48,101 bases of DNA from a virus (IMGVR_UViG_3300046457_000044:1-48101); one strand, 5' to 3'; shown: positions 1-47,974, counted from the stretch's first letter. Notes: generated from the sequence alone by a model not told the origin. Translations and numbers: made by a program.

Positions 1-1554
1 GAGCGTGCACCAGAAGCGCCACAACAGGCTGCTGAGGCTGCACCTATACCCAAGTATGTCCCGAAGGTTGGAGACCGTGTACGGCTCGCATTCAAGCCCG
101 ATAATTTGAATGCTGCTCCGGGTTGGGTAGATCGTGTAATGGATAAGCTTCTCGATGAGCAAGTTGTTCTGACGATCAAGCGAATTATTCCGGGTAATGG
201 TTGGGTGAAGGTTGAAGAAGATGAAGATGATTTTTCATATCATCCTGCTTGGCTTGAGCTTGTTGCTCCTGTCCGTCCGTTTGCTGTTGGCGATTTAATT
301 AAACAAGTTGGAGAGCGTTTCCCGGATGTGTTTAAGGTGCTGGAGTTGCTAGACAACCATCGTATCTGCATCAGCACGGCACGGGACCATAACAAAGTTC
401 TCGGAACTTGGGATGAATATTTGTTCGAACTTGTGCGCCGTGGTAATGGCGAAGCTGTTGCAGCAAAGCCCGCTATCATCGCTCCCAAGATTGGCGAATA
501 CGTCAAGGTGGCGAAGAAGGTGGCAGGAGGCAAGGCTAAATGGCTACCCGAAATGGATGCCACGATTGGCAAGACATACAAAGTGGAACGCTTTGACGAC
601 TGGGCCAAAACCTATCAACTCTCTAACGGGTACAGCTATCTGGCTGAATGTCTTGAAATCGGCAAGAAAGAAGATGTAGAGAAGAAAAAGAAGGGACCCG
701 CGCTACGTGACCTGATTGCGCAGAGCCGTAAAGAGGATATTAAGAATGTTCGCGGTGTGTCCAGCTATGTCGTGTTCCTGAAGAACAAAAAGACTGGCGA
801 GATTACGCTTAACAAGCATCTTAGTGACGTGTGCCACGCTCGCCTTGCTGTGTATTACGGTGGACGTGATGATGTTAAGGAAGCCGTTGCTGTGATTGAT
901 TATCAGCAGGCACATGAGAAGCAAGCGCTTGCAGCAGGAAAGGGATACAAGACAAGCTATCGCAAGTTTGTCGATTACATCGTCAATCGCAGCCCTTGGG
1001 CCGTGGCATTCCAAGGCAAGACAGTAAAGAACGTATTGGAGAATGGCGTTCTCATGAACGTAGAAGCTCCGAGTGGTGCTGTAGCTGGTGCATGTCAAGC
1101 TCTGCGTTATCTGTCCGAGTTCAACGCACAAAACGCTGTGTGGAAGCTCATGATGGACAACGGCATTCAGGAAGATGCTGCATTCCTCACCACGTATGCA
1201 TTCATTGCAGAAGCCGATGGATACACCAAGCATCCGATGGGTGGCGGCCATCAGCCGATCAACGGGGAAATCTCAGCAGGCTCGCTCATTTCGTTCTTTG
1301 CCAATGGCTATGACGAGAAGTTTCTCAAGTCCACTCCCTACCGTGAACAGACGAGTTACCGTGTTCATGAGCATGTCGAGAAAGTTAAAGACGTGCTGAA
1401 GATGCCGGAACCGTATGACACTTTTGTCCTGAAGGCAACCGAATGGACGGACGTGAAAGCTAATTGGGCAGTGGTGAAGAAGGCTACTGAAGAACAAGTG
1501 ATTGCGTTTGCACGTAATCTGGAACAACTCATCAACAAGGCTCGTGCAGCATGA
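1..1554 (+). CDS. Large protein with SH3-like repeat modules, 5' end missing
   Basis: The frame is open from the first base and stops at 1554, so the N-terminus lies outside the window. A TTG at 106 is only an internal codon. The visible part starts with an Ala/Pro-rich linker, then has three related modules of about 60-70 residues. Each begins with a VGD or IGEY turn and carries an aromatic/MD element (WVDRVMDKLL near codon 40; WLPEMDATIGK in the third) and an end such as YHPAWLELV. These resemble the small SH3-like (MIB/HERC2-type) repeats found in assorted phage proteins, which probably bind a ligand or partner. The remaining 290 residues match no family I know. The stop overlaps the next start by ATGA, so it is co-translated with the amidotransferase and probably belongs to the amidoligase cluster. 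Function unknown. Confidence 0.8.
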   Translation, partial: ERAPEAPQQAAEAAPIPKYVPKVGDRVRLAFKPDNLNAAPGWVDRVMDKLLDEQVVLTIKRIIPGNGWVKVEEDEDDFSYHPAWLELVAPVRPFAVGDLIKQVGERFPDVFKVLELLDNHRICISTARDHNKVLGTWDEYLFELVRRGNGEAVAAKPAIIAPKIGEYVKVAKKVAGGKAKWLPEMDATIGKTYKVERFDDWAKTYQLSNGYSYLAECLEIGKKEDVEKKKKGPALRDLIAQSRKEDIKNVRGVSSYVVFLKNKKTGEITLNKHLSDVCHARLAVYYGGRDDVKEAVAVIDYQQAHEKQALAAGKGYKTSYRKFVDYIVNRSPWAVAFQGKTVKNVLENGVLMNVEAPSGAVAGACQALRYLSEFNAQNAVWKLMMDNGIQEDAAFLTTYAFIAEADGYTKHPMGGGHQPINGEISAGSLISFFANGYDEKFLKSTPYREQTSYRVHEHVEKVKDVLKMPEPYDTFVLKATEWTDVKANWAVVKKATEEQVIAFARNLEQLINKARAA

Positions 1555-2174
1555 AAAAGGTTTATATCGTAGGCGGCAATGGTCAGTATGCCAATCTGTT
1601 TGAAGGTCTTGGATTCTCCACTACCGGCAACATCGTAGGGGCAGATTTGGTGTGCTTCACTGGCGGGGCAGATGTTTCGCCCCACTTGTACGGGGATAAG
1701 AAACACCAGTACACAGGCAGTGACTATGCTCGTGATTCGTTTGAAATGCGTATCTTCGATCAGGCACGAGAAGCACAAATCCCGATGGTGGGTATCTGCC
1801 GTGGTGGGCAGTTCCTCAATGTCATGAGTGGTGGGCGCATGTATCAGCATGTCACCAAGCATGGCATTCACGGCACTCACGACATGATTGACGTGGAGAC
1901 AGGTGAACACATCCCTGTTACGTCCACTCATCATCAGATGTTCATGCCAAGCGATAACGCCATCATCGTTGCAATTGCTACGCTTGGCGGTGAACGTGAG
2001 TGGTATGACGGTGAAGTGTTCAAGCGGGATGTGAGCAATACGGACTACGAAGTGGTGTATTACGAAGCCACCAACAGCCTGTGTTTCCAACCCCATCCTG
2101 AATTCAATGGTGAAGGTCTTGAAGCAATGAAAGACTACTTCGCTCGTTGCCTTAACAAATACCTCGGAGTCTGA
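1551..2174 (+). CDS. Class I glutamine amidotransferase (peptidase C26-like)
   Basis: This 207-residue protein has the class I glutamine amidotransferase fold signature. The nucleophile elbow is GICRGGQ with Cys83, and the distal FQPHPEF supplies His182 and Glu184, giving a full Cys-His-Glu triad. An oxyanion-type FTGGADVSPHLYG segment lies near residues 36-47, as in gamma-glutamyl hydrolase and PuuD-like C26 enzymes. Such enzymes hydrolyse gamma-glutamyl amide bonds or release ammonia from glutamine. It overlaps the upstream gene by four bases and is followed by a small gene after one base. Its place beside two COOH-NH2 ligases and an ATP-grasp enzyme suggests it either supplies ammonia or trims gamma-glutamyl linkages made by the cluster. 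The family call is firm; the substrate is unknown. Confidence 0.9.
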   Translation: MKKVYIVGGNGQYANLFEGLGFSTTGNIVGADLVCFTGGADVSPHLYGDKKHQYTGSDYARDSFEMRIFDQAREAQIPMVGICRGGQFLNVMSGGRMYQHVTKHGIHGTHDMIDVETGEHIPVTSTHHQMFMPSDNAIIVAIATLGGEREWYDGEVFKRDVSNTDYEVVYYEATNSLCFQPHPEFNGEGLEAMKDYFARCLNKYLGV

Positions 2175-2175
2175 C

Positions 2176-2526
2176 ATGTCCCTTCTGGAAAAGCTGCTTG
2201 AGAAGCTTGGTATGTATCACTGGTGGGATGCATTCAGGAATGAAGATCATCTGCCGTGCTACATCAATCGTGCCACGGTGACGAATGACTTCAAGACCTA
2301 CTCCCACATTCGCAAGTACATCGAAGCTTGCAAGGAACAGAAGGAAGGGATGATTGGCATGCTGCTCTTTAGCGTTACAGAGCGGGATGCACACCACAAG
2401 AAGTGGCTGCATGTAGCAAAGAAGGATGGATACCAAGTTGTTCAAAGCCCAAGCATTCACGGCGATTATCAATGTTGGTCCATCTTTGTTCCGAATGACA
2501 AGCTTGGCGAAATGTACTACCGCTAA
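2176..2526 (+). CDS. Hypothetical protein, 116 aa
   Basis: Not a family I recognise. It starts at an ATG one base after the amidotransferase stop, with CGGAG just upstream as ribosome binding site. It has an amphipathic leucine-rich N-terminus (about residues 1-13) followed by a mixed charged/aromatic body with no signal peptide or membrane segment. Continuous spacing with the neighbours supports it as a real member of the amidoligase operon. Confidence 0.7.
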   Translation: MSLLEKLLEKLGMYHWWDAFRNEDHLPCYINRATVTNDFKTYSHIRKYIEACKEQKEGMIGMLLFSVTERDAHHKKWLHVAKKDGYQVVQSPSIHGDYQCWSIFVPNDKLGEMYYR

Positions 2527-2535
2527 GGGATTTGT

Positions 2536-2563
2536 CACGTCTGTACGTCTGACACTTTGTAAC
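2536..2563 (+). promoter_or_regulatory. 28-base intergenic element, copy 1 (contains GACACTTTGTAAC)
   Basis: This matches 3114-3141 at 24 of 28 positions, and both copies sit just before the ribosome binding site of the next gene. The last 13 bases (GACACTTTGTAAC, 2551-2563) recur exactly at 45177 and 47948, where they overlap the -35 box of strong promoters. No convincing -10 box follows here, so an operator, a regulatory RNA site or a relic promoter are all possible. Confidence 0.55.
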
Positions 2564-2573
2564 AGAGGATGGA

Positions 2574-2888
2574 ATGAAGAAGTACATTGCAAACCCCTAC
2601 GGCTCAGAAGTGTTCTTTACACAGGACGCCAACCTATTCAAAAGATTGGCGGGGTTTGCTGTGGAAGATGCTGCTGGTGTAACGCATTGGGATGAAAACG
2701 GAACAGCTATCATCATGTACGTTGGTGATGGATTGTTAGAGACATTGGTACATGAGTGTTGCCACGCAACTCTTTACATCTTACAGCGTGTAGGTATTGA
2801 TCCTGCATGCGGCAATGGTGAGCCGATGGCTTATTTGATTGATTCGATGTTTGCCTGTTTTAAAACTGAATTTAAGGAAACGAAATGA
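2574..2888 (+). CDS. Small putative zinc metallopeptidase (HECCH motif)
   Basis: A 104-residue protein with a zincin signature: His60-Glu61-Cys-Cys-His64 inside a hydrophobic helix (LETLVHECCHATLYIL), followed about 19 residues later by a Glu (E83, in GNGEPMAYLID) that could be the third metal ligand, as in gluzincins. Small one-domain HExxH proteins with this Glu are known in phages, but their substrates are unknown. AGAGGATGG lies upstream of the ATG. The stop overlaps the next start. Because it sits inside the amidoligase cluster, it may process or remove peptide products. That role is inferred from position only. Confidence 0.7.
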   Translation: MKKYIANPYGSEVFFTQDANLFKRLAGFAVEDAAGVTHWDENGTAIIMYVGDGLLETLVHECCHATLYILQRVGIDPACGNGEPMAYLIDSMFACFKTEFKETK

Positions 2889-3112
2889 TTAAGGTAGTGA
2901 ATTTGGCGAATGTGCCTACGGTATCGCGCGACCAAATGATTCCGGGGAAGGCATACAACAGAGAGAATGGTGCAGTTATTGTAGTAGGGCGAAATAGCGT
3001 TGTTGCTCTTTTCCGAGAGGACGGCTCTTTTGACACAGTGGATATGAAATATCTCGATTCACGTCAATGCTATAACGAAGTAAATTTGGAAGTGAAAGCA
3101 ACAAAGGCATAA
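2885..3112 (+). CDS. Hypothetical protein, 75 aa
   Basis: It starts at an ATG overlapping the upstream stop (ATGA arrangement, 2885-2888). Its predicted strands resemble a small beta barrel: MIPGKAYNR, GAVIVVGRNSVVALFRE, DGSFDTVDMKYL. I do not recognise a family. It is followed by the second copy of the 28-base intergenic element and then the class II amidotransferase. Confidence 0.65.
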   Translation: MIKVVNLANVPTVSRDQMIPGKAYNRENGAVIVVGRNSVVALFREDGSFDTVDMKYLDSRQCYNEVNLEVKATKA

Positions 3113-3113
3113 A

Positions 3114-3141
3114 CACGTCCATACATCGGACACTTTGTAAC
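3114..3141 (+). promoter_or_regulatory. 28-base intergenic element, copy 2 (contains GACACTTTGTAAC)
   Basis: Second copy of the element at 2536-2563, with four mismatches, all in the first 15 bases; the GACACTTTGTAAC half (3129-3141) is identical. It ends 17 bases before the ATG of the class II amidotransferase. A sigma-70 promoter is not convincing here because any -10 box would fall on the start codon. Confidence 0.55.
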
Positions 3142-3158
3142 TTAACAGGATAGAAACT

Positions 3159-4526
3159 ATGTGTGGCATCGTCGGGATAGCAGGTGAGCTGGATGCGAAA
3201 GCAGACAAGGTACTGAAGCATTTGTTGATTTTTGACACTGTACGTGGAGAAGATTCCACTGGTGTTGCCAGTGTTGGCCGCCACAATGAAGATGTTCTCG
3301 TGGCTAAGACGCTTGGTTGTCCGCATGAACTGTTCGAACATCGTTTGTACGGCAAGGCAATTACTGGGCGTCAGAACCGTGTTGTCATCGGCCATAACCG
3401 ATATGCCACATCTGGTGGTGTTAGCAAGGCAACAGCACACCCGTTCGAGTTTGACACGTTGGTAGGAGTCCATAACGGAACCCTGCACAACAAGCATGTG
3501 CTGGACAACGCTGGTGACTACAAGGTGGACTCGGAAAACCTGTATCACCACATTGAGAAGAATGGCTTGGATGCTGCAATCAAAATCATCCGTGGTGCTT
3601 GGGCTCTCGTGTGGTGGGACAAGGAAGATGAAACAATCAACTTCCTGCGTAACAAAGAACGGACGTTGTACTACTGCGTCAACGAAGCAGGCAATCAGTT
3701 GTACTGGGCATCTGAAGCATGGATGCTAGAGATTGCTCTGGGCCGTAACGATATCAAGCACAAGGGAATCCAGATTTTCGAAGAAGATTTCCTTCATTCG
3801 ATTCCTGTAGCTAAGGGCGGAAAGCTTGGCAAGCCAATGCTTCGAAAGATCGTGAACGATCCTGCTCCCGTAGTTGTTCATCAACAGGGGAGGGTATATG
3901 ACAATCGCCACTCTTTTACGAAGGGGACTACTACTGGTTCTAACGGCAGCGAGTCCCCTAAGAACAATGTGGCGAAGCTTGAGAAGCCTGCTAACGCAAA
4001 GATAGACAGCCGTAGCAAGGTTGATGCGGAGTTCATGCAGGCAAAAAAGCTGGTATTGGAAGCCGTAGTGGTGGTGCAGGAAAAGAGTGGAGCAGAGTAC
4101 GTGCTTTGCTTCTGTCCTGATAAGCCCTTCTACGAAATCCGGCTGTACGTTCATAGCAAGCACAAGGTTCAGCAGGATATTGGCTGTGAGTTCGAAGGGG
4201 ATATCAGTGGCTTCGTTCAGACAGAGAGCGAAGGCGTTGGGTATTACAAGGTGAGCCCGCATGGAATCGTCATCACAGCTACAGCAGATGCGAATGCATG
4301 TACGGCTGTTGGCACTGTTGGTGAGTACCTAACCCATGATGGCAAGTACCTCGGCAAGGCAGATTGGGAAGCAGCGTATGGCACCTGTGCCTTTTGTGGG
4401 GACAACATCGAAGCAGATGACATGCTGGACAAGGGCGCACGTCTTACCAAGACTGGTGATGCGCTGTGTGGTGGTTGTATGGAAGACCCTGAAATCAAAC
4501 AGTACGTTAACACGGTGGAAGTCTAA
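3159..4526 (+). CDS. Class II glutamine amidotransferase with C-terminal zinc ribbon
   Basis: The N-terminal ~200 residues are an Ntn-type glutaminase domain like those of PurF, GlmS and AsnB. Seen are MCGIVGIAG (catalytic Cys2 after Met removal), RGEDSTG (29-35), GHNRYAT (78-84), HPF (94-96), GVHNGT (103-108) and WASE (183-186). No phosphoribosyltransferase, SIS or synthetase domain follows. Instead comes a low-complexity linker (about 225-280), an unassigned region, and a four-cysteine zinc ribbon (C410, C413, C437, C440). The domain would release ammonia from glutamine for a separate acceptor enzyme, plausibly one of the neighbouring ligases. The ribosome binding site is AGGA, 11 bases before the ATG. 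Confidence 0.9.
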   Translation: MCGIVGIAGELDAKADKVLKHLLIFDTVRGEDSTGVASVGRHNEDVLVAKTLGCPHELFEHRLYGKAITGRQNRVVIGHNRYATSGGVSKATAHPFEFDTLVGVHNGTLHNKHVLDNAGDYKVDSENLYHHIEKNGLDAAIKIIRGAWALVWWDKEDETINFLRNKERTLYYCVNEAGNQLYWASEAWMLEIALGRNDIKHKGIQIFEEDFLHSIPVAKGGKLGKPMLRKIVNDPAPVVVHQQGRVYDNRHSFTKGTTTGSNGSESPKNNVAKLEKPANAKIDSRSKVDAEFMQAKKLVLEAVVVVQEKSGAEYVLCFCPDKPFYEIRLYVHSKHKVQQDIGCEFEGDISGFVQTESEGVGYYKVSPHGIVITATADANACTAVGTVGEYLTHDGKYLGKADWEAAYGTCAFCGDNIEADDMLDKGARLTKTGDALCGGCMEDPEIKQYVNTVEV

Positions 4527-4543
4527 TTTCTAAGGAGTAGTAC

Positions 4544-5338
4544 ATGACTAAAATTCTCGTAGGCTGCGATCCTGAAGTGTTTGTGAAGAAGGATGGCGTA
4601 TTCAAGTCGGCACATGGTCTTATCAAGGGGGATAAGAAGAACCCTCAGAAGATTCATCGTGGTGCTGTTCAAGTGGACGGTATGGCGTTGGAATTCAATA
4701 TTGACCCGGCTGCAAGCGAGGATGAATTCTGTCTCAATGTGCAAGACGTTTTCGCAGCAATGTGTGCAATGGTTCCGGGATATGAAGTGGTGGCAACTCC
4801 AGTGGCTCACTTCGATCCTGAGTACATGAAAGCCCAACCGGAAGAAGCAAAGGAGCTTGGCTGTGATCCTGACTTTAATGCATGGACTGGGATGGCTAAC
4901 CCGCGTCCTAATGGCGATCGTTCTTTCCGTACTGCTTCGGGCCACGTTCACATCGGTTGGACGGATGGGGTGGACGCAGCATCGGGAATTCATCTGGCGC
5001 AAGCTAATGCGGTTGTCAAGCAGATGGACTTTTACCTCGGCCTTCCGTCCTTGCTCTATGACCCGGATAGTGAGCGCCGCGAAATGTATGGCAAGGCTGG
5101 CGCATGCCGATACAAGAGCTACGGGGTGGAGTATCGCACTCTGTCGAATGCTTGGCTCAAGAGTGAAACGCTGATGCGTTGGGTGTTCCGTTCGGTTCAG
5201 CGAGGAATGCAAGACCTAATGAATGGCAAGGCTCTCGTTGACACGTTTGGTGACGTGCAGGAAGTTATCAACACGTCGAATGTCACGGAAGCGAAAGCTA
5301 TCATCAAACACGCAAAGTTGGAGGTTGCACATGCTTGA
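4544..5338 (+). CDS. phiEco32-like COOH-NH2 ligase, type 2 (glutamine-synthetase fold)
   Basis: This 264-residue protein matches the phage type-2 COOH-NH2 ligases. GCDPEVFV (Glu11) opens the sheet, VDGMALEFN (44-52) supplies a second acidic group, ASGHVHIGW (131-139) carries paired histidines, and CRYKSYGVEYRTLSNAW (188-204) carries Arg189, Glu196 and Arg198. By homology to gamma-glutamyl-cysteine ligases it would use ATP to join a carboxylate to an amine. AAGGAG precedes the ATG. The stop overlaps the next, very small gene. In phiEco32-like phages it occurs together with the type-1 ligase, an ATP-grasp enzyme and amidotransferases, as here. The natural substrate is not known. Confidence 0.88.
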   Translation: MTKILVGCDPEVFVKKDGVFKSAHGLIKGDKKNPQKIHRGAVQVDGMALEFNIDPAASEDEFCLNVQDVFAAMCAMVPGYEVVATPVAHFDPEYMKAQPEEAKELGCDPDFNAWTGMANPRPNGDRSFRTASGHVHIGWTDGVDAASGIHLAQANAVVKQMDFYLGLPSLLYDPDSERREMYGKAGACRYKSYGVEYRTLSNAWLKSETLMRWVFRSVQRGMQDLMNGKALVDTFGDVQEVINTSNVTEAKAIIKHAKLEVAHA

Positions 5339-5444
5339 AGCTGTTCTATTTTGGGGATTCCTTGTTCCGTGCTGTGTTGGTGTTTGGGGGCTTGCTATTG
5401 CCGCGTTGTTCTGCGTGTATAAGTTGTTTACGGAGGGCTTCTGA
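5331..5444 (+). CDS. Single-pass membrane peptide, 37 aa
   Basis: The ATG at 5331 overlaps the ligase stop and is preceded by a strong GGAGG (5320 region). The stop overlaps the next ATG (TGATG). Nearly the whole peptide is one hydrophobic segment, with two adjacent cysteines, a Glu near the N-terminus and KLFTEGF at the C-terminus. Translational coupling on both sides argues that it is real. It may place the cluster, or its product, at the inner membrane; that is inference. Confidence 0.7.
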   Translation: MLEAVLFWGFLVPCCVGVWGLAIAALFCVYKLFTEGF

Positions 5445-6037
5445 TGCCGCACGAAATGAGTATTGACGATATTCGGCAGAAGTTCGAAGGCTCTGTTGTG
5501 ATGTACCAGAAGAAGCCTGTGTTGTTCAAGAAGGTGGGCGGTGATTTCTCCTGCCGCATCTTCGATTTGATGGCACAGACGGAAGCACAGGTTGAATTCG
5601 ATATGAAGGCATTCCAACCGCCTCCTTCCCGAATCGGCTTTGTCAACATCAACGGCAGTGTGTTGTACGCAGTGCGTAATGCCATCCGTCGCTACAAGCT
5701 TGGAATCTCGAAAGAGAATTTCAATGTTCAGCAACTGCCTGTCCCGTACCCGGATGGACGTTCTGACGTGTATATCCGGCTCGTGGCGGGCTTGGAGAGG
5801 CGTGAGCTAGGGGAGGCTATCCTGAACAAGTATCCAACCCTCCAGCAGGCGATTCGTCGTGTCAGTCAGTTTGAAGGGGCTTGTGCTTTTGACAAGCAAT
5901 TCGCAATCGACCATCACCATCTTGTTTATTACAAGACTGCACAAGTAGGCCTTTTTATTGGTGGCGTCATTAAGTTTGACGAAGGCTTTGAACATCTTCA
6001 TCTTCTTCTGAACAAAGGCTATGAAAAAAGTAATTGA
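5444..6037 (+). CDS. Hypothetical protein between the two amidoligases, 197 aa
   Basis: Not recognised. It starts at the ATG overlapping the membrane peptide stop and ends 17 bases inside the type-1 ligase. The protein is soluble and mixed alpha/beta. It has a DGRSDVYIRLVAGLE segment near residues 104-118 and histidine pairs near the C-terminus (DHHHLVYY). Its position between the two ligases and its overlapping ends make it a likely functional partner in the cluster. Confidence 0.75.
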   Translation: MPHEMSIDDIRQKFEGSVVMYQKKPVLFKKVGGDFSCRIFDLMAQTEAQVEFDMKAFQPPPSRIGFVNINGSVLYAVRNAIRRYKLGISKENFNVQQLPVPYPDGRSDVYIRLVAGLERRELGEAILNKYPTLQQAIRRVSQFEGACAFDKQFAIDHHHLVYYKTAQVGLFIGGVIKFDEGFEHLHLLLNKGYEKSN

Positions 6038-7070
6038 GTTGTTGGGCTGCAAGAGCCAACGTGGTGACATTGGCATTGAGATTGAATGCGAAGGCGACAA
6101 CATGATTGCGCTAGATGAAGCTGTTTGGCGCAGTGAGGATGATGGGAGCTTGCGAGGACACTATCCTCAAACTCGTTGTGAGTACATCTTGGCGAAGCCG
6201 CTAAAGATTGAAGCTATCCCGGTAGCCCTTACTGAGTTGTCAAAACGGTTGAAAGAAGCAAATGCAGTGCTTGACTTCAGTCATCGATGCAGCGTGCATG
6301 TGCATGTGAATGTCCAGCAGCTTGAGTATCAACAGCTTCTGGCCTTCATGTACACCTACTACCTGCTCGAAGAACCGTTCATGACCTATTGCGGCAAGAG
6401 TCGTAAGGGAAACAACTTCTGTCTACGCCTTCAGGATGCCGAAGGGGTTCTTGAGGTTGTGAATGCGATGTTTGAGAACGGTGAAGAAGGCATTCACCAC
6501 ATCGGACAAGACCGACAACGCTATGCCGCAATGAACTTTGAAGCTCTACGGAAGTATGGCTCGCTGGAGTTCCGTGGCATGGAAGGCAACATGGACGTGA
6601 ATCGTATCAGTACGTGGTGCCAAGCATTGATCCGTATGCGTGATTTTGCAGTCAAGCTGGACAATCCGCAGAAGGTGTTTGACCTGTTCCAACAGCTTGA
6701 CCCCGTTGCATTCATTGATGCTGTGTTGGGAGACATTGCTAGTGAATTCCAGTATGCACGACTGATTAAAGATGTTCAGAAATCCTTCTCGATCAGTCTC
6801 GATCTTCCGTTCAAGTTTGCTGATTTCCTTAAGCGTCCGAAGGATGATGGGGAGTACAAGCTGGGGCAGCTTGTGTCGTATGACGTAGCTGTTCGTATTG
6901 CTCGTAAGGGGTATCAACTCGACTACGGCCCTGATGGAATGTACAAGATTGTGGTGCTTCCGCCTAGGAAGAAGGTTGCTATGCCTAAGGCTGCATTTGC
7001 TCCGGTTGGTGGTTGGGCTGTCCAACCGAACATTATTCACGATGAAGTAGAAGCGAACCCGGAGTGGTAA
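6021..7070 (+). CDS. Amidoligase, type 1 COOH-NH2 ligase (glutamine-synthetase fold)
   Basis: The 349-residue protein shows the amidoligase pattern in order: GIEIECEG (18-25, acidic metal/ATP site), DGSLRG (41-46), CEYILAKPL (53-61), SVHVHVNV (91-98, paired histidines), YAAMNFEAL (168-176) and GSLEFRGMEG (180-189, Glu-Arg pair). These correspond to the ATP-binding and catalytic strands of gamma-glutamate-cysteine-ligase-like enzymes, which form amide bonds with ATP. The start is inside the upstream gene, and its TAA overlaps the ATP-grasp ATG (TAATG). It pairs with the type-2 ligase at 4544 and is probably part of the same peptide- or conjugate-making pathway. Confidence 0.9.
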   Translation: MKKVIELLGCKSQRGDIGIEIECEGDNMIALDEAVWRSEDDGSLRGHYPQTRCEYILAKPLKIEAIPVALTELSKRLKEANAVLDFSHRCSVHVHVNVQQLEYQQLLAFMYTYYLLEEPFMTYCGKSRKGNNFCLRLQDAEGVLEVVNAMFENGEEGIHHIGQDRQRYAAMNFEALRKYGSLEFRGMEGNMDVNRISTWCQALIRMRDFAVKLDNPQKVFDLFQQLDPVAFIDAVLGDIASEFQYARLIKDVQKSFSISLDLPFKFADFLKRPKDDGEYKLGQLVSYDVAVRIARKGYQLDYGPDGMYKIVVLPPRKKVAMPKAAFAPVGGWAVQPNIIHDEVEANPEW

Positions 7071-7807
7071 TGAAAATCTATCCGTATATGAATGGCAGCA
7101 AGAGCGCTAAGGCGTTGGCTGAAGGCTTGGGTATCAAGGTTCTCTTGCGAGAGGGCAAAGCAATGCGCCGTCACAAGATCATCAACTGGGGTTGTTCCAA
7201 GATTCTTCGTGATGTTGGTGAAGATATTCTCAACCATCCGGGAGCAGTGGGACATGCCGCTAACAAGCTTGTCACGTTTGAATTGTTTCGGGATGCTGAA
7301 GTTCCTACGGTGGAGTGGACTACAGACTCTGCACAAGCAGAAGTGTGGCTGCATGAGCCTTCTAATGTAGTTGTTCGGCACAAGCTCACAGGTCATAGTG
7401 GAGAAGGTATTCAAATTCTCGAATGGGACAAGGGACATGAAGTTCCTCAAGCCCCTCTCTACACCAAGTACACAAAGAAGAAGGATGAGTACCGGATTCA
7501 TGTGTTCGGTGATGAAATCCTTTTCCAACAACGTAAGGCACGTCGAAAGGAAGTTCCTGATGACCAAGTTAATTGGCAAGTACGTAATCTTGCTGGTGGC
7601 TTCATCTTTGCAAATGATGGGGTTGAAGCTCCTGAAGCTGTCAAGCAAGCTGCCACCAAAGCTGTTGCAGCGCTTGGTTTGGATTTTGGTGCAGCGGATA
7701 TCGGCTTTAAGGACGGTGCTGCTGTCGTATATGAAGTGAACACGGCATGTGGCCTTCAAGGAAAAAATCTTGAAAGTTATGTCAATAAGTTCCGTGAATA
7801 CCTGTAA
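7070..7807 (+). CDS. ATP-grasp ligase of the amidoligase cluster
   Basis: I place the start at ATG 7070, which overlaps the upstream TAA and has GGAG six bases before it; an in-frame GTG at 7064 is less likely. The 245-residue protein carries ATP-grasp features: Lys66 near the linker, VVRHKLTGHSGEGI (101-114) as the flexible Gly-rich loop, KDEYRIHVFGDEI (138-150), and the metal-binding end AADIGFKDG...YEVNTACGL (Asp210, Glu222, Asn224). Such enzymes activate a carboxylate as acyl-phosphate and join it to an amine or thiol. It is the last of the five core enzymes of the cluster. Phage-type ATP-grasp is confident; the substrate is unknown. Confidence 0.9.
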   Translation: MKIYPYMNGSKSAKALAEGLGIKVLLREGKAMRRHKIINWGCSKILRDVGEDILNHPGAVGHAANKLVTFELFRDAEVPTVEWTTDSAQAEVWLHEPSNVVVRHKLTGHSGEGIQILEWDKGHEVPQAPLYTKYTKKKDEYRIHVFGDEILFQQRKARRKEVPDDQVNWQVRNLAGGFIFANDGVEAPEAVKQAATKAVAALGLDFGAADIGFKDGAAVVYEVNTACGLQGKNLESYVNKFREYL

Positions 7808-45174: not shown

Positions 45175-45203
45175 TTGACACTTTGTAACTGAGTGTGTAT
45201 TGT
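45175..45203 (+). promoter_or_regulatory. Host sigma-70 promoter of the early gene block
   Basis: TTGACA (45175-45180), 17 bases, TATTGT (45198-45203). The -35 box is perfect and the -10 box has four of six consensus bases. It lies 55 bases before the first early gene. GACACTTTGTAAC (45177-45189) overlaps the -35 and spacer. Confidence 0.75.
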
Positions 45204-47945: not shown

Positions 47946-47974
47946 TTGACACTTTGTAACGAACGTTTTACAAT
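47946..47974 (+). promoter_or_regulatory. Strong host sigma-70 promoter
   Basis: TTGACA (47946-47951), 17 bases, TACAAT (47969-47974, five of six consensus bases). This is the best promoter seen in the window. GACACTTTGTAAC (47948-47960) overlaps the -35 box and the spacer. Confidence 0.85.

Follow-up and report, generated by a model that had tools for sequence, protein, structure and literature searches.

The virus record analysed here, referred to throughout as the window, is 48,101 bases long and carries near its left end five enzyme genes within positions 1551-7807, all on the plus strand and either overlapping or separated by short gaps. The features of this region are listed below, with the seven core genes labelled U, A, B, 2, X, 1 and G.

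1-1554, plus strand: U, conserved upstream gene with its start lost at the record start; core at about residues 226-517, N-terminal part variable
1551-2174, plus strand: A, class I / Peptidase C26 enzyme, predicted PuuD-like gamma-glutamyl hydrolase (PF07722, 5.7e-21; phrog_7218, 2e-53)
2176-2526, plus strand: 116-residue protein, not core (12 hits among 169 loci)
2551-2563, plus strand: repeat GACACTTTGTAAC, possible regulatory site before the mini-zincin gene
2574-2888, plus strand: 104-residue HExxH mini-zincin-like protein, not core (SprT-like, 0.0029; phrog_1365, 7e-21)
2885-3112, plus strand: 75-residue protein, not core (no relatives in 169 loci)
3129-3141, plus strand: repeat GACACTTTGTAAC, possible regulatory site before the class II gene
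3159-4526, plus strand: B, class II (Ntn) glutamine amidotransferase with a C-terminal zinc ribbon (PF13522, GATase_6, 8e-17; phrog_4736, 2e-75)
4544-5338, plus strand: 2, COOH-NH2 ligase type 2 (PF14395, 2.6e-8; phrog_3815, 3.5e-91)
5331-5444, plus strand: 37-residue membrane peptide, not core (look-alike in one of five neighbours checked)
5444-6037, plus strand: X, 197-residue core protein with a predicted N-terminal Tudor/SH3-like barrel (between the ligases in 131 of 138 cassettes)
6021-7070, plus strand: 1, Amidoligase_2 family COOH-NH2 ligase (PF12224, 1.7e-10)
7070-7807, plus strand: G, RimK-like ATP-grasp ligase (phrog_2599, 4e-81; TIGR00768, 1.4e-9)

A preliminary description of this DNA had placed five amidoligase-pathway enzymes with intact motifs in one operon at 1551-7807, and both family profiles and conserved residues agree with that placement. 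Profile searches assign all five enzymes to their families, including both ligases to COOH-NH2 ligase families (PF14395 and PF12224), and in alignments of 135 to 212 relatives the catalytic residues of all five are conserved at 93-100%. The extent given for the operon needs revision at one end, since the cassette begins earlier, with the overlooked gene U.

Protein A matches PF07722 at 75.7 bits against a cut-off of 20.5 and has the Cys-His-Glu triad (C83, H182 and E184, kept in 98-100% of relatives), along with an S125-HHQ motif. Its nearest solved structures are Lin1909, SpuA-type proteins (we take structure 7d4r, entitled probable glutamine amidotransferase, to be SpuA) and E. coli PuuD, and its best NCBIfam models, both matched far below cut-off, are gamma-glutamyl-GABA hydrolase and gamma-glutamyl-CDP-amidate hydrolase. 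These relatives and models favour the cutting of gamma-glutamyl bonds over the supply of ammonia, which the class II enzyme can provide, and A is thus likely to be a gamma-glutamyl cutter. Alternatively, the C26 enzyme could be a glutaminase, or C26 and gamma-glutamyl cyclotransferase (GGCT) enzymes could serve in amino-acid recycling. Protein B scores above the PF13522 cut-off and carries the N-terminal Cys and glutamine-site residues of class II enzymes (C2, R81, N106, G107 and D124); these and the ribbon cysteines C410, C413, C437 and C440 are present in 94-100% of relatives, and the CxxC-CxxC ribbon at the C-terminal end is kept in 94-98%. Its nearest solved structure is PurF, and it is the likely ammonia source. 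The earlier suggestion that one amidotransferase gives ammonia and the other cuts gamma-glutamyl bonds can thus be made specific, with the class II enzyme probably in the first role and the PuuD/SpuA/Lin1909-like class I enzyme probably in the second.

Ligase 2 matches PF14395 at 33.8 bits (cut-off 25) and shows conserved catalytic residues D9, E11, E50 and H134xH136 in the alignment of relatives. Ligase 1 matches PF12224 at 41.6 bits (cut-off 22) with ExE and HxH motifs in place; E20xE22xE24 (ExExE), E54, H93xH95 (HxH), R128 and E183xR185 are found in 98-100% of its relatives. No convincing solved relative of either ligase emerged from sequence searches. The start of G is most likely the ATG at 7070, the listed 7064 being an upstream GTG. 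This protein has the conserved ATP-grasp catalytic residues for metal and ATP (E141xR143, D211 and E223xN225), and its nearest solved structures are RimK alpha-L-glutamate ligases (8e-9), with which it shares the fold family and those catalytic residues. Its score against the RimK family TIGR00768, 37.7 bits, is far below the curated cut-off of 143.4, so it is RimK-like and not a RimK family member by the curated rule. Long versions of B, G and ligase 1 were searched for fused domains that might hint at a substrate, and no extra Pfam domain was found in them.

The relatives nearest to the record by DNA and protein searches are Zobellviridae podophages such as Pseudomonas phages O4 and TC6 and Klebsiella phage Klyazma. 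In relatives of this type, and likewise in the window, the cassette stands directly before genes for primase/helicase, sigma factor and DNA polymerase. O4, TC6/PA11 and Klyazma share with the window the order U-A-B-2-X-1-G, although their ligases and C26 enzyme are well under 60% identical to those of the window and different small genes occupy the slot between A and B. To place the cassette more widely, loci were retrieved with window-type queries and with phiEco32-/LUZ24-type queries, all open frames were called, and iterated profile searches were run. The same core order recurred in the first set of 169 loci, and since more than 100 distinct contigs show the cassette genes in a constant order, the arrangement is far from chance. 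The type 2 ligase is encoded in 316 phage records, so that similar cassettes occur in hundreds, including those of Pseudomonas aeruginosa and E. coli phages. Only 9 contigs among GTDB genomes matched the cassette, all with titles marking them as MAG or uncultured, and the cassette looks phage-specific. The seven core proteins gave no match to PADLOC defence models at E<=0.01.

The main sample comprised 138 cassettes, all of them distinct and complete and with flanking sequence available; they were selected by their ligases, near relatives cluster among them, and their C26/GGCT state tracks lineage. Gene X adjoins the ligases in 131 of these. In two of the seven others an unassigned frame occupies the expected position and could be a diverged X; the other five differ in architecture and yielded no X. 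These five (L239, L253, L256, L257 and L184) combine ATP-grasp, C26, ligase 2, class II and ligase 1 genes in varying order, and in the first four the ligase 1 frames run to about 580 to 615 codons. A profile of X built without the sequences concerned matched phiEco32 phi32_85 (6e-9), RIO-1_12 (3e-7) and, weakly, LUZ24 gp17 (1e-4), and X was also matched by profile in Vp_R1, LAh_8, Privateer and Rhizobium phage RHph_N3_19. The AlphaFold model of X is of high confidence (pLDDT 90.4); its resemblance to known structures is confined to the N-terminal part and to Tudor, PWWP and SH3-like barrels, at low scores (best Z 5.6). X probably presents substrate to its two flanking ligases.

The preliminary description had also proposed that the extra genes of the cluster complete the pathway. 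Of these genes, the 197-residue protein, now called X, alone accompanies the cluster and belongs to its core, and the remaining small genes were rejected as pathway members because they are not conserved across loci. In the comparison of 169 loci the mini-zincin had 2 matches (both in one contig), the 116-residue protein 12 and the 75-residue protein 0, so that they do not travel with the cluster. The look-alike of the membrane peptide was found in L001 and was absent from L002, L009 and L013.

In most zobellvirid-type loci the gene immediately before C26 is U. A sequence search finds it with 82 of the 138 cassettes, so it is common, though by this search not universal. The record starts partway through U and lacks end repeats, so it is probably incomplete there, and a continuation of U across joined record ends is ruled out. 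Two residues of U are invariant, C278 in 102 of 102 aligned sequences and R369 in 106 of 106. Its core of about 290 residues is modelled by AlphaFold at pLDDT 94.5, with no Foldseek match in the PDB at E<=0.001. The corresponding search of BFVD (E up to 0.001) returned 13 viral proteins, and all of those with readable names come from phages, among them the cassette carriers CW02 and RIO-1. Profile comparison relates U to phi32_88 (96%) and RHph_N3_19 031 (93%) and, less surely, to phi32_87; it gave no support for a relation to LUZ24 gp14/gp15, nor for either X or U as a hidden GS-fold or ATP-grasp paralogue. Glutamine synthetases do top the structural list for U, but the match is low (Z 3.7, rmsd 4.5 over 130 residues) and may be meaningless. 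U is probably a further dedicated catalyst, a role that rests on the two invariant residues because the model has no known fold match. The window has a single U gene, whereas Privateer (093 and 094; L179) and LAh_8 (4 and 5; L178) have a tandem pair from the U family, and in each member a Cys-Phe motif lies close to the N-terminus.

Every one of the 138 complete cassettes is accompanied by a predicted gamma-glutamyl-cutting enzyme, C26 or GGCT or both. Within the retrieved stretches the tally was 84 with C26 only, 28 with GGCT only, 21 with both and 5 with neither. Whole-record searches then found GGCT elsewhere in the genome, and no C26, for all five of the last group, which completes the 138 and gives a final tally of 84 with C26 only, 33 with GGCT only and 21 with both. 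Either enzyme is rare in the background of 50,697 phage records, where tblastn gave 66 matches for A and 143 for the LUZ24 GGCT, and among the matches listed for C26 and GGCT most are from phages of cassette-bearing groups. The two enzymes appear to exchange for one another, with a Fisher p of 2e-11 from the counts preceding resolution of the five cassettes, a value that is not independent evidence because only 3 independent pairs lie on well-supported branches; the sign test on the exchange was not significant. On a FastTree phylogeny of the type 2 ligase the three states (C26, GGCT or both) require 16 changes. Because the choice between C26 and GGCT tracks phage lineage, the negative association alone is weak. 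The presence of at least one cutter in every case does not rest on that test. Comparison shows the gene set, its order, the intact catalytic residues and the constant company of a predicted cutter, and it supports a gamma-glutamyl removal step.

The cassette is a real, well conserved and previously described gene set, now found in another phage. What the present analysis adds is two under-described core proteins and a gamma-glutamyl-cutting step that every complete cassette seems to need. We know of no established product for the cassette, none is reported in the literature that we found, and that literature held nothing direct on the cassette in the genetics of these phages. The preliminary description had likewise stated that no product is established; the cassette itself is better known than it implied. 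A seven-gene peptidoglycan modification cassette was described in RIO-1-like podoviruses (PMC5498523, citing Hardies 2013 and an Iyer paper) and said there to be common to phiEco32, PA11, tf, MR299-2, LUZ24, PaP3 and CW02. The label of a peptidoglycan modification module is used in that paper and in PMC11945000, and the cell-wall and superinfection idea is restated in PMC11945000 and PMC10580990. When Pseudomonas phage FJK, which encodes the type 2 ligase, was put through directed evolution, missense changes arose in its genes for the amidoligase and the class II glutaminase (PMC11450229), which hints at an effect of the cassette on infection.

The description of the window cassette as complete and phiEco32-like is borne out as kinship and fails as identity. 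The phiEco32, LUZ24 and RIO-1 cassettes share with the window two COOH-NH2 ligases flanking X, a class II glutaminase, a RimK-like ATP-grasp protein and a nearby primase/helicase, and the window has the type 2 ligase, Amidoligase_2, ATP-grasp and class II GATase together. Those three phages have GGCT, after or before the set, and no annotated C26, whereas the window has C26 in place of GGCT as its gamma-glutamyl enzyme. In phiEco32 and LUZ24 the class I enzyme is absent, GGCT is present (PF06094 at 3.6e-20 in LUZ24), and the class II gene follows the ligases, unlike its position in the window. A search of the whole window record gave no PF06094 match and confirmed C26, so the cassette is a Zobellviridae-type variant and no copy of that in phiEco32.

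Our preferred reading, to which we give a probability of about one half, is that the phage uses the cassette as a biosynthetic module for an amide-linked product, assembled on a gamma-glutamyl handle that C26 or GGCT then removes. Precedents are PuuA-PuuD in putrescine metabolism and BtrJ-BtrG in formation of the butirosin side chain, where an ATP-dependent gamma-glutamylation is followed by removal of the group by a C26 or GGCT-type enzyme; unlike the cassette, these systems have one ligase per handle and known substrates. Protection, coupling and deprotection would be the simplest scheme to use all of the parts; the direction of the chemistry and the roles of X and U are inferred. The class II glutaminase B would supply ammonia, and a gamma-glutamyl group would be added to an amine by one of the ligases, whether the RimK-like ATP-grasp enzyme or a COOH-NH2 ligase of the GS fold. 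The remaining ligases would make further amide bonds, with ammonia or an amine, while X presented the substrate to the ligases on either side of it and U acted as another dedicated catalyst. The PuuD-like A would then hydrolyse the gamma-glutamyl amide, much as PuuD follows PuuA and the GGCT-type BtrG follows BtrJ, and in phages of the phiEco32 and LUZ24 types GGCT would perform this step. The 21 cassettes with both C26 and GGCT and the five of other architecture without X count against this model. A bolder version is tentative and on balance doubtful: U would represent a novel kind of Cys-dependent enzyme, its fold absent from the PDB, and together with X it would complete a seven-gene pathway to a previously unknown gamma-glutamyl-derived conjugate in infected bacteria, C26 and GGCT being interchangeable as the final enzyme. 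The rule of C26 or GGCT points mass spectrometry at a gamma-glutamyl intermediate, which would be expected to pile up once that enzyme is removed, and together with the overlooked partners X and U it offers a testable route to the product.

Peptidoglycan modification, in which the ligases would give the stem peptide in the wall of the host unusual peptide linkages and thereby block superinfection or prepare lysis, seems to us unlikely. It is the proposal already published for the same cassette, as cited above, and it gains from hosts in the hit lists that are mostly Gram-negative bacteria and from the gamma-linked glutamate of stem peptides. Known GGCT chemistry, however, needs a gamma-glutamyl group with a free alpha-amine, and the stem D-Glu is N-acylated, which argues against stem D-Glu as the substrate though not against other wall targets. 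Furthermore, the searches run with the seven core proteins returned no family concerned with wall targeting or transport.

A second alternative, which we also consider improbable, is protein tagging. Glutamate, an amide or short peptides would be attached to some protein of the host or the phage by the RimK-like ligase together with the amidoligases; X and B would bind the target, through the Tudor/SH3-like barrel and the zinc ribbon respectively, and C26 or GGCT would trim the tag. RimK glutamylates ribosomal protein S6, and it is to solved RimK enzymes that G is nearest; the Tudor-like barrel of X and the conserved CxxC-CxxC ribbon of B would fit such a role, and protein modification has been proposed for the R2K-type ATP-grasp ligases of phages (PMC4431377). 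No target is tied to the cassette, however, and both barrel and ribbon could bind nucleic acid or be structural. A supply of nitrogen or amino acids, with auxiliary metabolic genes releasing ammonia and glutamate for the infected cell, was preferred for a planctomycete phage that encodes these enzyme types and raised growth on nitrate or ammonium (PMC10945688). Here it is very unlikely, as three separate ATP-dependent ligases, accompanied by X and U in a constant order, are ill-suited to simple salvage and the cassette looks phage-specific.

Between positions 1400 and 8400 of the window no terminator-like site was found in the cassette, against about 6 expected by chance from shuffles, and promoter-like sites are few, which fits a single long transcript. 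The repeat GACACTTTGTAAC has four exact plus-strand copies, two in intergenic gaps of the cassette (2551-2563 and 3129-3141) and two that fall within promoter-like TTGACA sites towards its right end (45177-45189 and 47948-47960). With up to 2 mismatches there are 6 matches against 2.0 expected, a total of 6 being reached in 2 of 100 shuffles, and the copies may serve as a common regulatory site. ORF32-48 of PaP3, which is LUZ24-like, belong to the middle genes and peak in activity at 10-30 minutes (PMC4707531); its amidoligase is orf46 and its GGCT is orf41/42, so expression of the cassette probably starts along with DNA replication. In many relatives a second, distant ATP-grasp gene lies between the C26 gene and the class II gene, replacing some of the small genes of the window (L002:4141-4884, L006:5967-6656, L008:5834-6625, L009:5431-6180 and L013:5017-5754).
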